From Candidatus Methylomirabilota bacterium (GTDB lineage: Bacteria > Methylomirabilota > Methylomirabilia > Rokubacteriales > CSP1-6): a stretch of 53,282 bases of DNA. The notes below the pieces were generated by a model. That model worked only from the letters and a program-made list of their open reading frames with translations. It was not told where the DNA came from and did not search any database. The stretch spans positions 1-53,282 of the forward strand of contig DASYUQ010000222.1 of NCBI GenBank assembly GCA_036001065.1, read 5' to 3'. Below are positions 10,885-47,554 of the stretch, piece by piece. How positions within the stretch are numbered: position 1 is the stretch's first letter; each line of letters starts with the position of its first letter. Both the position numbers and the translations under genes were made by a program.

Positions 10885-11091
10885 TTGCCGCCGTCCGCCC
10901 GCCGCGTTGCACGGTCCCCGACCTTCCCACTTGGACTAGACAACCGCGTGATCGTGCGGATCGGTAGCGGGGAGCACCGCTGCGGGCCGGGAGCCCTGCT
11001 GACGATTCCCGCCAAGACCCGTCACCACGTGCGCAACCCCGGCCGCCCGCCGCTTTTCTTCGTGACCGTTTACGCGCCGCCCGCGTGCTAG
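10885..11091 (+). pseudogene. Cupin-domain protein, C-terminal fragment
   Basis: Residues RVIVRIGSGEHRCGPGALLT then IPAKTRHHVRN, followed by PPLFFVTVYAPP, match the second half of a small cupin barrel (G-x5-P-x-G motif and H-x-x-x-N region). The first cupin motif is missing and the sequence upstream is unrelated. The terminal TAG (11089-11091) comes from the CTAG end of the 90-bp element, so the gene is also cut on that side. Confidence 0.6.
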
Positions 11092-11177
11092 TGCCGTTCC
11101 AACTATTCGCGCCTAGGAAGGCACCGTGTACGTCGTTCGTGGACAGATTTAGTATCAACAAGTTGGAACGGCACTAG
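11088..11177 (+). mobile_element. 90-bp family A element, copy 1
   Basis: Ninety bases bounded by perfect 17-base inverted repeats (CTAGTGCCGTTCCAACT and its complement). Inside is AGGAAGG (11115-11121), then GTG and an eight-codon stub VYVVRGQI ending in TAG (11126-11152). The left 44 bases match the GIY-YIG element at the window start. Identical to the copy at 38679-38768 and one base different from that at 45689-45778. CTAG at both ends may be a duplicated 4-bp target. Confidence 0.8.
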
Positions 11178-38673: not shown

Positions 38674-38899
38674 CGTCTCTAGTGCCGTTCCAACTTGTTG
38701 ATACTAAATCTGTCCACGAACGACGTACACGGTGCCTTCCTAGGCGCGAATAGTTGGAACGGCACTAGTTCAATCGGAGGGGGCCGCGACGGCCCCCTCC
38801 GAGGCCTCCCCCAGAAAGGGATTGCGCCGGCGAAGCCGGCGCTCGAGACGGCGAGGAGTGCCCGTAGTGAGCGCGCGCCATTCGCCCCACCGTCTCTAG
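38671..38899. repeat. Composite A+B insertion flanked by 12-bp direct repeats
   Basis: CACCGTCTCTAG occurs at 38671-38682 and 38888-38899. Between them are the 90-bp family A element (its CTAG shared with the first repeat) and a family B unit (38769-38887) with hairpins CGGAGGGGGCC/complement and GCGCCGGC-GAA-GCCGGCGC. Removing the insert and one repeat would put the DUF58 GTG five bases after the moxR stop, the spacing expected in this operon. Confidence 0.75.
38679..38768 (-). mobile_element. 90-bp family A element, copy 2
   Basis: Exact reverse complement of the copy at 11088-11177, with perfect 17-base terminal inverted repeats and the same eight-codon stub preceded by AGGAAGG, here on the minus strand. 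It sits six bases upstream of the DUF58 start codon and is followed by a family B unit. Confidence 0.8.
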
Positions 38900-41471: not shown

Positions 41472-42830
<1,359 letters not shown>

Positions 42831-42837
42831 GGCTCGC

Positions 42838-45075
42838 TCAGGCCCCGCCGTAGGCCTCGACGGGCGCGGTGGAGCGCGACACGGGCAGCTCCATGACGAA
42901 GCGGCTCCCCTTGGGCTGGTTGTCCTCCACCCGGATCGTGCCCCCGTGCTCGGTGACGATCTCGTGCACGATCGGCAGCCCCAGCCCCATGCCGTTCGTC
43001 TTCGTCGAGAAGTAGGGCATGAACAGCTTGTCCTTGTCCTCGGGGCTGATCCCGGGCCCGGTGTCGCTCACGATGACCTGCACCCGCCCCGCCTCGGGCA
43101 GATGGAGAGCCTCGACGTCCACCTCGCCGGTGCCGCCCACCGCCTCCACGGCGTTGTCCACGAGGTTGAGCATCGCGCGCTTGATGTGGTCGGGGTCCAC
43201 CTCGAGCCGCGGCAGGTCGTCGCGGTAGCGCGTGGTCAGCCGCAGCGCGGGGTGCGACTCGCGGTAGAGGCCGGCCACCGCGTCCAGCAGCGACTTCAAG
43301 TCCGTGGGACGCGGCGTGAGCACCGGCATCCGGGCGAAGCGCGAGAACTCGTCCACCAGCCGCTTGAGCCCGTCCACCTCCTGGATGATCGTCTCCGTGC
43401 ACTCGGTGATGAGCTGCTCGTCGCCGGGGTTGCGGGCCAGCCGCCGCTTGAGCCGCTGGGCCGAGAGCTGGATGGGCGTCAGCGGGTTCTTGATCTCGTG
43501 GGCGATCCGCTGGGCGACCTCGCGCCAGGCGGCCAGGCGCTGGGCCTTGAGCAGCTCCGTGAGGTCGTCGAAGACGATGACCGCGCCCGTGTACTCGCCT
43601 TCGGGGCCGCGCAGCGCGGTGGCCGAGGCCAGGAGCGACACGCTCACGCCGCTCCGGCGCAGGTGCAACTCCTGCTCGATGGCGACCCCGGCCTTGGCGC
43701 GCCGGATGCGGGCCACGAGCCCGACCACGTCCCTGAACGCCGGGCTGCCGAACACCTCTTCGACGGGGCGTCCGACGGCGGCGGCGCTGTGCAGGCCGAA
43801 CATCCCGGCGGCGGCCCGGTTGAGCGTCGTCACCGCCCCTTGCGGATCGAGCGACACGACGCCGGTCGTGATGGCCTCCAGCACGGTCTCGATGTAGCGC
43901 CGCCGGTCCTCCAGCTCGGTGTGCTTGTCCTGCAGGTCCAGGTACGCCTCCTCCAGCTGTCGTTTCGACTGGGCGAGGTCGTCCGTCATCCGGTTGAAGG
44001 AGTCGACGAGCACGCCGATCTCGTCGTCCGCCCGCGCCTGCACCTTGTAGCTGAGGTTGCCGGCCGCCACCTCGCGGGTGCCCTCGGCCAGCTCGGCGAT
44101 GGGGCCGGTGATGCCGCGGGCCAGGTAGAGCCCGAACCAGGCGAAGGAGAAGACGACGATCAGCGTCATCAGGAGGAAGAGCAGGATGTAGATGCCCTTG
44201 ATCGGGTTCTTCACCAGTTTGAGCTGCTTGTACTCCTGGAACGCCTGCTCGATACCGCGGATCTTCTGCTCCAGCCGCTCGGAGACGTGGGTGCCCACCA
44301 CCACCACGCCGATGACGCCGCGCCGGGGGTCGTGCGAGAAGACGGGGGTGATCGCCTCGATCAAGTCGCCGGACGCCAGCTCGCGGACGGTGGTCACGTT
44401 CTGACCCGCCCGCCCCAGCCGGAGCTGGCTCTCGTTGACCTCGCGAGTGGGGAGATCGCCGAGCCCGGGGTCCTTCACGTGGACCAGCTCCTGGCCGCCG
44501 GCGCTGAACACGGTCAGCGCGCTGAGTCCGAGCTGCTCCTGCTGCTCGACCAGGTAGGCGGCCAGCTCCTCCCGGTTGGCCTCGTCCAGGAGGTCGTCGC
44601 GGTCGATGACACGGCCGATGTGCTGGGCGTGGCGCAGGGCGGTGGCCTGGAGGTTTTGGTAGTACGTCTGGGCCACCCCCAGCGCCTGGTCGAGGGGGCG
44701 CTCGACCTGGGGCTTGAACCAGCCCTCGATCGACTTGTTGATGAAGTTGGAGGCGATGATGAAGATCAGGATGGCGGGGGCCAGCGCCAGCGACAGGAAG
44801 GCCAGCACGAGCTTCGTCTTGAACCTGGCCCCGATCAGCTTCTGCCGACGCTCGACCCAGAGCTTCACGAGATTGCGAAGAAGCAGGACCAGCAGCAGCA
44901 GGAAGACGATGAGGTTCAGGTTGAACAGGGCGAAGACGACGATGTTCGAGGCCAGCGGCAGTTGGGGCACGCGCATCTCGAGGCTGAGCGCGCTGGCGAT
45001 CGCCACCAGCACGAGCAGCCCGCTGATGATGACGAGATTGCGCCGGCGCCGGCCCTGGTCGCTGTAGAGCGGCAT
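42838..45075 (-). CDS. ntrY: NtrY-like membrane histidine kinase
   Basis: The 745-residue kinase has two N-terminal helices (about 14-32 and 42-66), a third (about 88-112) before a periplasmic sensor and a fourth near 295-318, then HAMP, PAS (about 385-490), the dimerisation H-box AHEIKNPLTPIQLSAQRLKRR (phospho-His near 512) and an ATPase domain (N box LVDNAVEAVGG, GLGLPIVHEI). This is the NtrY layout. The start overlaps the DUF4390 stop by one base (TAATG); its regulator follows directly. Confidence 0.93.
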   Translation of the reverse strand: MPLYSDQGRRRRNLVIISGLLVLVAIASALSLEMRVPQLPLASNIVVFALFNLNLIVFLLLLVLLLRNLVKLWVERRQKLIGARFKTKLVLAFLSLALAPAILIFIIASNFINKSIEGWFKPQVERPLDQALGVAQTYYQNLQATALRHAQHIGRVIDRDDLLDEANREELAAYLVEQQEQLGLSALTVFSAGGQELVHVKDPGLGDLPTREVNESQLRLGRAGQNVTTVRELASGDLIEAITPVFSHDPRRGVIGVVVVGTHVSERLEQKIRGIEQAFQEYKQLKLVKNPIKGIYILLFLLMTLIVVFSFAWFGLYLARGITGPIAELAEGTREVAAGNLSYKVQARADDEIGVLVDSFNRMTDDLAQSKRQLEEAYLDLQDKHTELEDRRRYIETVLEAITTGVVSLDPQGAVTTLNRAAAGMFGLHSAAAVGRPVEEVFGSPAFRDVVGLVARIRRAKAGVAIEQELHLRRSGVSVSLLASATALRGPEGEYTGAVIVFDDLTELLKAQRLAAWREVAQRIAHEIKNPLTPIQLSAQRLKRRLARNPGDEQLITECTETIIQEVDGLKRLVDEFSRFARMPVLTPRPTDLKSLLDAVAGLYRESHPALRLTTRYRDDLPRLEVDPDHIKRAMLNLVDNAVEAVGGTGEVDVEALHLPEAGRVQVIVSDTGPGISPEDKDKLFMPYFSTKTNGMGLGLPIVHEIVTEHGGTIRVEDNQPKGSRFVMELPVSRSTAPVEAYGGA

Positions 45076-45641
45076 TATTGGACCCGCCTGATGCGACGGA
45101 AGTCGGACTGCTGCAGGGTCTGCTCGGCGGTGCCGGCCATGCGCGCCACGAACGTATTCTCGCCGTTCAGCGCGGTGGCGGCGCGGACGCGGACGTAGAT
45201 GATGTCGTCGGGGTCGAGCTCGGAGGCCGGCGTGAGCTTCGTCGCCCGCAGCTCCGAAAGCACCCGTTGCGCGTCGCGCAGGTCGCGCGTGCTGTACACC
45301 GGCCGCGTCTCACCCTTGAGGAAGGTCACCCGGTACTCCTTGGTGACGAGGTTGTAGGTGAGGTGGCGCTCGACCAGCTGGGTGGTGAGGAGGCGGTCGC
45401 GCCAGAACCGGTTGTACTGCCAGAGCTCGATGGTGAAGCGGACGTGGGCGGGGATGCCGCTGTGGATCGATTCGTAGAACGTCGGCGGCACGGCGCCCAG
45501 CGCGACGACGTGGACCGTCACCTCATGGTCGTTGAGGTAGATGGTCAGATCGCTGAGACGAATCTCGGCCCGCGCCGGCGCTCCCACGGCGAGCCATAGC
45601 GCCGCCGCCAGCACACAGAGTCCGGAACGCGCACCACGCAT
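45075..45641 (-). CDS. DUF4390 protein with signal peptide
   Basis: The 188-residue exported protein (signal peptide to about ARA at 25) matches DUF4390 proteins, which commonly precede ntrY-like kinases. It shows a beta-rich core (VRFTIELWQYNRFWRDRLLT, HLTYNLVTKEYRVTFL). It may act in the periplasm with the kinase sensor; this is inference from linkage. It has a perfect TATAAT at 45656-45661 only 15 bases from the ATG. Confidence 0.88.
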   Translation of the reverse strand: MRGARSGLCVLAAALWLAVGAPARAEIRLSDLTIYLNDHEVTVHVVALGAVPPTFYESIHSGIPAHVRFTIELWQYNRFWRDRLLTTQLVERHLTYNLVTKEYRVTFLKGETRPVYSTRDLRDAQRVLSELRATKLTPASELDPDDIIYVRVRAATALNGENTFVARMAGTAEQTLQQSDFRRIRRVQ

Positions 45642-45688: not shown

Positions 45689-45778
45689 CTAGTGCCGTTC
45701 CAACTATTCGCGCCGAGGAAGGCACCGTGTACGTCGTTCGTGGACAGATTTAGTATCAACAAGTTGGAACGGCACTAG
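45689..45778 (+). mobile_element. 90-bp family A element, copy 3
   Basis: Same structure as the copy at 11088-11177, with one base changed (GCGCCG instead of GCGCCT near position 27). Perfect terminal repeats. It is immediately followed by family B units, as is the copy at 38679. Confidence 0.8.
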
Positions 45779-46054: not shown

Positions 46055-46972
46055 CTAGAAGGCGGCGAGGCCGGGTGCGGGAACGAGCGCGCCGTTGCGG
46101 CGGACGGCTGGGAACGGCACTACGGCCAGGCCGGCGCCGGCCGGACGGCGCTCGAGGCCTAGCGCGCGCTGGACCGCGAGCACCAGCTCGAAGTTCAGCG
46201 CGTGGCCCGCGTTGCGGGCGATGACGTGGCCCACCACCGGCCGACCGAGAAGGGCGAGGTCTCCGATGAGGTCGAGAATCTTGTGCCGCACGAACTCGTC
46301 ACGGTACCGGAGCCCGTTCAGGACGCCGCGCTTGCCCACGCCGATGGCGTTCTCCAGCGAGGCGCCGCGGGCCAGGCCGTTCTTGCGCATCGGGCCGAGA
46401 TCTTTCAGGAAGCCGTAGGTGCGGGCGGGGGCGAACTCCTCGATGAACATGCGCTCGCTCGGCGTGCAGGTGAGCGCCTGGGTGCCGATCGCAGGATGGT
46501 CGTTGTCGAGCGTGTAGCTGATGCGGAGCGTTTCGGAGGGAACCATCTGGATCCAGCGCCCACCGCTGCCCACTCGGATCGGGTAGGGGATCTTGATGGG
46601 CCGGCGCGGCGCCGACTGCTCGGCGCGCCCCGCCGTCGCCAGCAGGGTGACGAACGGCTTGGCGCTGCCGTCCCCCGCGGGGATTTCCGGGCCGTCGACC
46701 TCGACGTCGAGGTTGTCGATGCCGAGCCCGGCCGCGGCGGCCATGAGGTGCTCCACCGTCTGAATCCGCGTCCCATTGCGCCCGATGGTCGTCGCGTAAT
46801 GGCAGTTGACGACGCTCTCTGGCGCGGCGGGAATCGGCTCGTCGTGGCTCGCCACTCTGAAGATGATGCCGGAGTTGGCAGGCGCGGGAGACATCGTGAT
46901 CCGCACCGGCCTTCCGGAGTGAAGACCGACGCCGTCCATCGTCACCGGTTTCCGGATCGTTGTCTGGTGCAT
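46055..46972 (-). CDS. lpxC: UDP-3-O-acyl-N-acetylglucosamine deacetylase
   Basis: Zinc deacetylase committing lipid A synthesis. The 305 residues contain GVGLHSG (about 15-21), the zinc and catalytic TVEHLMAA (about 71-78), EIPAGDGSA and FVRHKILDLIGDLALLG with HKxxD, plus GHVIARNAGHALN. The ATG at 46970-46972 is used; a TTG 21 bases upstream is part of the sigma-54 -12 element. A family B repeat lies at its 3' end. Its presence implies an LPS outer membrane. Confidence 0.94.
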   Translation of the reverse strand: MHQTTIRKPVTMDGVGLHSGRPVRITMSPAPANSGIIFRVASHDEPIPAAPESVVNCHYATTIGRNGTRIQTVEHLMAAAAGLGIDNLDVEVDGPEIPAGDGSAKPFVTLLATAGRAEQSAPRRPIKIPYPIRVGSGGRWIQMVPSETLRISYTLDNDHPAIGTQALTCTPSERMFIEEFAPARTYGFLKDLGPMRKNGLARGASLENAIGVGKRGVLNGLRYRDEFVRHKILDLIGDLALLGRPVVGHVIARNAGHALNFELVLAVQRALGLERRPAGAGLAVVPFPAVRRNGALVPAPGLAAF

Positions 46973-46988
46973 GGCCGGCGGAGAGAAG

Positions 46989-47004
46989 AGCAACTGAGGT
47001 GCCA
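46989..47004 (-). promoter_or_regulatory. Sigma-54 (-24/-12) promoter of lpxC
   Basis: TGGCACCTCAGTTGCT on the minus strand is an essentially perfect match to TGGCAC-N5-TTGCW, with GG and GC ten bases apart. The predicted start is near 46979, leaving a leader of about seven bases. Confidence 0.6.
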
Positions 47005-47054
47005 GACGCGATTACGAGGGATAACAGATTGATTTCACTCGCTCTGGGTCCCTT

Positions 47055-47117
47055 ACATTGTCGGCTTTACAAGCGTCTCCGTGTTGCGTTCACGACACGC
47101 TGTGCCGCCACATTGTC
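47055..47117 (-). promoter_or_regulatory. Paired candidate activator sites upstream of lpxC
   Basis: GACAATGT (minus strand) occurs at 47055-47062 and again at 47110-47117, 55 bases apart, about five helical turns. They lie roughly 75-140 bases upstream of the predicted lpxC start, where enhancer-binding proteins usually bind. The stretch is also visibly less GC-rich than its surroundings. Confidence 0.4.
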
Positions 47118-47131
47118 TCGTTTTAGAAACA

Positions 47132-47554
47132 TCAAACATCGACGATCAGCCGGACCTCCGACCGGTCGCCCTCCTCGGTGACCGACACCTGGTGGTAGGT
47201 TGCAGCCTTCACGACCGTGCCGGGACGGTGGCGGCGGGTGTCGATCGCCTCGCCGCGCAGGAGGCCGTGCACCAGCGCCGGCCCCGGCCTCGTCACCTCC
47301 ACCCGCCGCACCGCGAACCCCTCGATCTCGTGCACGTACAGGCACTCGTTGATCCAGTTCACGAGCAGGCGCTCGGGCGAGTCGCCCTGCGCGCGGACCT
47401 CCCGCGTCTCGCGTTCCTCGACGTCTTCGGGGGCGATCGTCAGGGCGAGAACCCCGAGCGCGGCCTGGGCGAGCGCTTCCGTCAGCGTCGGTCCCCACGC
47501 CCTCACGCCGACGTCGGCGGCCACATCGAAGTAGTCGTAGCCGGCCTCAGTCAC
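47132..47554 (-). CDS. Archease family protein
   Basis: The 140-residue protein has YFDVAADVGVRAWGPTLTEAL, LVNWINECLYVHE and the metal-binding C-terminal GEAIDTRRHRPGTVVKAATYHQ, the archease (DUF101) pattern. Archease activates the RNA ligase RtcB by aiding guanylylation; no rtcB gene is in the window. The GTG at 47552-47554 overlaps rsmE by eight bases; an upstream start at 47584 would add ten residues. Confidence 0.87.
   Translation of the reverse strand: MTEAGYDYFDVAADVGVRAWGPTLTEALAQAALGVLALTIAPEDVEERETREVRAQGDSPERLLVNWINECLYVHEIEGFAVRRVEVTRPGPALVHGLLRGEAIDTRRHRPGTVVKAATYHQVSVTEEGDRSEVRLIVDV

Follow-up and report, generated by a model that had tools for sequence, protein, structure and literature searches.

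A conserved sigma-54 promoter of lpxC in Rokubacteriales and its predicted activation by NtrX

Control of LpxC is known mostly as regulated proteolysis in Escherichia coli and its kin. Transcriptional control by sigma-54 has also been recorded: the accessible text of two studies lists lpxC (DVU2917) of Desulfovibrio vulgaris under sigma-54 and the regulator DVU2934, as control of lipid A (PMC3333781, PMC4641369). This qualifies the view of an earlier note on the DNA analysed here, which took lpxC to be normally a housekeeping gene. According to the same accessible text, DVU2934 is an NtrC-family response regulator bearing the GAFTGA motif, with lpxC as its single target; its gene is grouped with those of an HD-GYP regulator and the kinase DVU2931 at a distance from lpxC, and beyond D. 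vulgaris just two Desulfovibrio genomes show the validated DVU2934 motif at lpxC. The operon of the orthologous regulator borders lpxC in S. fumaroxidans (PMC3333781). A putative sigma-54 promoter has likewise been predicted for lpxC of Leptospira, where the accessible text names an activator, LIC_11549 (EbpB), and describes no dyads (PMC12655853). In Rhodobacter sphaeroides and Caulobacter, in turn, the NtrYX two-component family has been linked with the envelope and lipid A (PMC7240162, PMC12444477). In the accessible account of R. sphaeroides, lpxC rises on loss of ntrYX, an effect judged indirect, and the NtrX motif is GCA-N9-TGC. In the accessible part of a 2025 review, NtrYX figures solely as an alpha-proteobacterial inhibitor of lpxC transcription, and no sigma-54 promoter is mentioned (PMC12444477). 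Francke et al. 2011 (PMC3162934) tie sigma-54 to LPS genes both phyletically and by promoters; lpxC and NtrX are not named in the accessible text.

The window, that is, the whole stretch of DNA analysed, is 53,282 nucleotides long and lies on contig C222 (DASYUQ010000222.1) of genome G000 (GCA_036001065.1), that of a soil-dwelling Candidatus Methylomirabilota bacterium of the order Rokubacteriales. The close relatives of its lpxC among named records are Candidatus Rokuibacteriota MAGs. The genes archease, lpxC, DUF4390, ntrY and ntrX follow one another on the minus strand:

46973-47131: intergenic gap between archease and lpxC, 159 bp
46055..46972, minus strand: lpxC (Pfam LpxC, 1.8e-96; NCBIfam TIGR00325 above its cut-off)
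45075..45641, minus strand: DUF4390 membrane or periplasmic protein, the next gene 3' of lpxC (Pfam PF14334, 8.1e-19)
42838..45075, minus strand: NtrY-like sensor kinase (Pfam NtrY_N, HAMP, PAS, HisKA, HATPase_c)
41472..42830, minus strand: NtrX-like sigma-54 activator with receiver, AAA+ domain and Fis-type HTH (Pfam domains; GAFTGA read in the AAA+ domain)

As in the D. vulgaris circuit, a GAFTGA-bearing response regulator of the NtrC family is predicted to act on lpxC, and sigma-54 is again tied to an LPS gene. The linked pair here, however, is NtrYX, and the dyads described below are found across the order and, in looser form, in other phyla, a contrast with DVU2934 that concerns gene context and phyletic spread and not binding motifs. 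Whereas the effect in R. sphaeroides is negative and judged indirect, direct activation is predicted here, and the R. sphaeroides-type motif is absent. In the literature found, which mostly leaves subscription journals outside its coverage, NtrX acting on a sigma-54 promoter of lpxC is not described, nor did the accessible texts yield the NtrX-linked dyads, their breadth or an in-place promoter switch.

The start of lpxC is placed at the ATG at 46972, since alignments with lpxC of other phyla begin at residues 1 to 3 of the N-terminus. The predicted regulatory features of the gap upstream are the following:

47004..46989, minus strand: sigma-54 -24/-12 promoter TGGCACCTCAGTTGCT with GG-N10-GC spacing (exact match and conservation)
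47034..47022, minus strand: IHF-type site AATCAATCTGTTA, 3' of the dyads and 5' of the promoter (exact match to WATCAANNNNTTR)
47098..47083, minus strand: UAS2, proximal dyad GTGTCGTGAACGCAAC, consensus GTGTCAT-N4-GNNAC (conservation in the order)
47131..47114, minus strand: UAS1, distal dyad TGTTTCTAAAACGAGACA, consensus TGTCTC-N6-GAGACA (leave-one-genus-out test)

The promoter had been recognised in the earlier note, which placed it 17 bases before the ATG; the distance is 16 nt. Its core TGGCACCTCAGTTGC (47004..46990, minus strand) is the sole match to TGGCAC-N5-TTGC without mismatches in the window. One exact match of this kind is little proof alone, so the proof rests on conservation. Of the 60 genomes that represent the order, 58 yielded lpxC, at 56 to 97% identity with that of the window, and the order-level counts cover the upstream sequences of all 58, with eight duplicates removed. 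TGGC with the GG-N10-GC spacing stands upstream of lpxC in every one of them. The strict form TGGCAY-N5-TTGC occurs within 75 nt of the lpxC start in 53 of 58 genomes and 23 of 25 genera, against 0.01 by shuffling, and the looser TGGC-N7-TTGC in 57 genomes and all 25 genera, against 0.1; the remaining 452 kb (strand-bases) of the lpxC loci of the order contain one strict and four looser matches. With the upstream sequences anchored on the promoter, conservation in the gap between archease and lpxC is highest at the -24/-12 element. The two findings named in the earlier note as fatal to its claim, a genome lacking rpoN and a GG/GC spacing not kept in relatives, did not turn up: the spacing is universal in the order, and rpoN is present in the genome (PF04552 match, 5.0e-61) and in 91 of the 95 genomes of the phylum. 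Judged by this conservation, the sigma-54 promoter before lpxC is real and important.

Transcription is predicted to start at about 46978, giving a leader of about 6 nt when the last C of the -12 element is counted as -12. By the same rule, the predicted leader measures 5 to 12 nt in 51 of 58 genomes and 5 to 42 nt overall, and may read up to 3 nt too long where the alignment begins at residue 3. At about 6 nt, the leader predicted here would be too short to hold a Shine-Dalgarno site. A CGG motif just 5' of the ATG (46973-46978), at the predicted start, is conserved in the order.

The earlier note had also proposed a pair of upstream sites as enhancers. The two copies of GACAATGT do exist, at 47055-47062 and 47110-47117 on the minus strand, 55 bp apart (two against 0.35 expected by chance), but the word is found upstream of lpxC in one of 58 genomes, that of the window itself, and its enhancer role was discarded. 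Of the two copies, the distal one overlaps a conserved dyad at its edge and the proximal one matches no conserved element; by this distribution the GACAATGT sites are incidental.

Conservation points instead to two tandem dyads and the IHF-type site as the putative regulatory sites of the gap, all three missed in the earlier note. UAS1 (consensus TGTCTCnnAnAnGAGACA) attains p<0.01 in the leave-one-genus-out test in 52 of 58 genomes and 23 of 25 genera. UAS2, usually found 90-94 bp above the -24 element, matches its consensus at 9 or all 10 positions in 43 of 57 genomes, against 0.1 by shuffling; as the consensuses of both dyads were drawn from the tested set, such shuffle expectations are lower bounds on chance. 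The dyads are 32 bp apart, centre to centre, in the window, and UAS1 sits 32-34 bp above UAS2 in the order, about three helical turns, which keeps them in a fixed helical phase. Both halves of UAS1 may change while the dyad is preserved, as in TGTCCC/GGGACA of locus L123 and CGTCTC/GAGACG of several genomes. As enhancer-binding sites upstream of a sigma-54 promoter, the locus thus offers two conserved dyads, judged from sequence alone.

The IHF-type site was scored against WATCAANNNNTTR, the E. coli IHF consensus. Matches at 8 or more of its 9 positions occur in 20 of 58 genomes and almost always lie at -29 to -31 relative to the T of the -24 element; seven matches are exact and 13 have one mismatch, against 0.01 and 0.8 by shuffling. 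The genome encodes IHF-beta (119.6 bits, cut-off 115) and IHF-alpha (112.2 bits, cut-off 111), each passing one NCBIfam model; neither gene passes the TIGR models.

Genome-wide, we find 45 matches to the sigma-54 consensus, against six in the reversed control. Scored for a UAS1-type dyad, lpxC reaches 25.8 bits, the next match 16.6 and the one after it 9.3, the rest lying below 10. The second-best dyad, CGTCACCTAACAGTGACA (L211:1386-1515), which alone among the other matches is of fair quality, is located between apt and a short ORF. Sigma-54-like TGGAACGGCACTAGC matches at 11087, 11164 and 45765 of the window were rejected as promoters, being the ends of a dispersed inverted-repeat element. 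This 90-bp element, with exact 17-bp inverted ends (AGTTGGAACGGCACTAG), is present at 11088-11177, 38679-38768 and 45689-45778, with a half copy at 125-141, and resembles a small repeat of the non-autonomous mobile or the REP type. The copy at 45689 lies between lpxC and DUF4390.

The candidate activator has the architecture of NtrX: a receiver, a sigma-54 AAA+ domain with GAFTGA and a Fis-type HTH, with NtrY adjacent. Its best NCBIfam model is NtrX (NF051870) at 506 bits, under the equivalog cut-off of 600, and we therefore call it NtrX-like; the best model of the kinase is the Leptospira LIC_11548 kinase family. In 46 of 58 genomes of the order, lpxC is followed at 2.4-3.4 kb downstream by a strong NtrX match on its own contig and strand. 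Of the remainder, six have NtrX on another contig and six have none recorded, one of the latter (G049) showing a partial 78% match. Four genomes of the phylum (G047, G057, G063 and G079) have neither an lpxC match nor a close NtrX. Gaps in the assemblies at one linked locus may account for these absences; with G079 at 94% and G057 at 97% completeness, a true lack is possible.

Linkage alone is not proof, because the genome of the window contains 25 strong Sigma54_activat (bEBP) matches. The alpha-proteobacterial NtrX motif GCA-N9-TGC is found in none of the 58 upstream sequences of the order, with 3.2 expected. The recognition helix reads ERSNL or ERSHL, and GTCTC half-sites are confined to the H lineages; this co-variation decides nothing, given that G037 and G051 (H) keep GTTGC-like sites and that G089/L068 carry H outside the order.

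The sister family f10, which contributes lpxC of 15 genomes, bears on the choice of activator. The sister families f5-f8 have the promoter, in a TGG[TC] form, in 18 of 18 cases, 60-75 nt before the aligned lpxC start. Within f10, NtrY is linked to lpxC in three genomes (G088, G087 and G082), NtrX also where the contig reaches, and all three keep the promoter. The other 12 genomes form one clade (support 100/99), in which no ntrYX is found within the DNA read, a downstream reach of 4 to 7421 bases that in G086 and G091 permits no local judgement; genome-wide, no close NtrX is found in any of the 12. On the tree, the loss is a single evolutionary event. The loose -24/-12 rule fails in nine of the 12, the exceptions being G090, with an intact element, and G093 and G094, with a loose CTGC form. 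Ten of the 12 carry instead a sigma-70-like promoter, TTG-N17-TANNNT with at least 8 of 12 positions matched, whose TTGC is the old -12 element; this count includes G090, which has both promoter types, and G081, whose spacer is one base short. No score above 7 is seen in f5-f8. Of the 15 f10 genomes, 14 keep rpoN. The promoter appears to have changed its sigma class in place, with the TTGC of the -12 element taken over as the -35 hexamer of a sigma-70-like promoter.

Outside the order, matches to the sigma-54 rule are seen again, as is a general dyad, TGT[GT][GTC]C-N6-G[ACG][AC]ACA. Among promoter-matching loci, the dyad is found in 15 of 24 class outgroups and 13 of 31 loci of other phyla, with 0.24 expected in each, the consensus for other phyla being drawn partly from the tested sequences. 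In a set of 50 genomes from other phyla, 21 of 35 with NtrY_N have the promoter against 6 of 15 without, a difference that is not significant (p=0.23). NtrX can be read next to NtrY in 24 genomes; GxF[TS]GA is intact in 20 and absent from four (L087, L066, L097 and L111). Under a relaxed -24/-12 rule, set after seeing five apparent exceptions and following the null NtrY_N test, lpxC has the element in 18 of 19 genomes with an intact motif, against a chance level of 0.9 of 19, and in none of the four without (Fisher p=5.6e-4); L093 is left out for its short upstream sequence, and L100 counts as a miss despite TGGCAAGACTATTGC. Promoter and dyad occur together in 11 of the 19. The stricter rule used first gives 15 of 20 against none of four (p=0.012). 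Phylogeny confounds these comparisons, two of the four motif-less NtrX being of beta/gamma type with low identity. Two Desulfobacteraceae loci, L097 and L111, have lost GAFTGA (GAFTEA and DALTEN) and have lpxC without a -24/-12 element.

In the L085 family, titled Geobacteraceae, the relaxed element is present at 15 of 15 lpxC loci (0.06 expected) and TGTG-N10-CACA at 13 (0.02 expected); the family was fetched later, but the relaxed rule and this form of the dyad were set after seeing it, and under the earlier rules the promoter is found at four of 15 loci and the dyad at two, against 0.13 and 0.02 expected. In Myxococcaceae, TGGCAT-N5-TTGC stands 109-119 nt before lpxC at three of four loci, including that of Myxococcus xanthus, and the fourth has TGGCGT.

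Linkage, co-loss and GAFTGA co-variation together indicate that the activator of lpxC is probably NtrX, as the earlier note had suggested, with binding a prediction from sequence. Drawing on the promoter, dyads and IHF site with their conservation, on the domains of the activator, and on its linkage and co-loss, we consider it likely that NtrX switches on the sigma-54 promoter of lpxC through the two dyads and IHF. The gene would be transcribed from a promoter that requires an enhancer-binding activator. Phosphorylated NtrX, made from the downstream ntrYX, would bind the tandem dyads centred about 144 and 112 bp above the predicted start, and a DNA bend imposed by IHF at about -50 would bring the NtrX hexamer into contact with the sigma-54 polymerase. 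The GAFTGA loops would then open the polymerase complex, with transcription starting some 6 nt ahead of the ATG. NtrY, as the sensor kinase responding to a presumed signal, would set the amount of LpxC, the committed enzyme of lipid A synthesis; were lpxC and ntrYX cotranscribed, NtrX would raise its own level.

LpxC is required for growth in most Gram-negative bacteria, and a missed housekeeping promoter or read-through from archease could provide a basal supply to which sigma-54 adds under envelope or nutrient stress. We regard such a dual supply as a tenable but less favoured possibility. It is compatible with NtrX as the activator, G090 carries both promoter types, and a consensus scan of 46900-47300 revealed no terminator, leaving nothing of that kind between archease and lpxC. 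The same scan revealed no sigma-70 promoter, however, the rest of the intergenic sequence in the order is taken up by the sigma-54 architecture, and f10 gained its sigma-70-like promoter where ntrYX was lost.

It is rather unlikely that the promoter answers to another activator, perhaps a relative of DVU2934, and that ntrYX is nearby for other reasons. The two dozen further enhancer-binding proteins of the genome would offer candidates, and the accessible text on D. vulgaris places its lpxC activator in an operon with the HD-GYP regulator and DVU2931 (PMC3333781). In other phyla, the promoter is still present in six of 11 genomes lacking a readable NtrX next to NtrY, where the activator may be another protein, and in five of 15 lacking an NtrY_N match (0.81 expected). 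Against this stand the linkage in 46 of 58 genomes, the loss of the promoter with ntrYX in f10 and the co-variation with GAFTGA. We give very little weight to repression or indirect tuning of lpxC by NtrX, with a fortuitous -24/-12 match, as modelled on R. sphaeroides, whose lpxC transcript is up 8.8-fold without ntrYX and, in the accessible text, has no NtrX site at lpxC (PMC7240162); in the order, no intergenic feature is better conserved than the -24/-12 element (58 of 58 genomes), the dyads are spaced from the promoter as enhancers would be and do not cover it, and the R. sphaeroides-type motif is missing from all 58 upstream sequences. A chance match is refuted by the conservation of the strict form, even though loose matches are common (32 with up to two mismatches in the window, yet below the 41.9 obtained by shuffling).

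The f10 clade furnishes a natural example of a sigma-class change at an existing promoter. The accessible texts leave open the reason for the essentiality of rpoN in Geobacter sulfurreducens and M. xanthus (PMC2725144, PMC4641369). We suggest tentatively, as a proposal slightly less likely than not, that NtrYX-sigma-54 control of lpxC is old and widespread, spanning Methylomirabilota, Acidobacteriota, Nitrospirota and several delta-proteobacterial lineages, that it is part of the reason why rpoN cannot be deleted in these two species, and that loss of ntrYX is followed by in-place rewriting of the promoter. Recurring in other phyla, the arrangement at lpxC could account for the vital role of sigma-54 control in some of them. 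Should lpxC rely on sigma-54 and NtrX across many phyla, an essential pathway would rest on a sigma factor that needs an activator.
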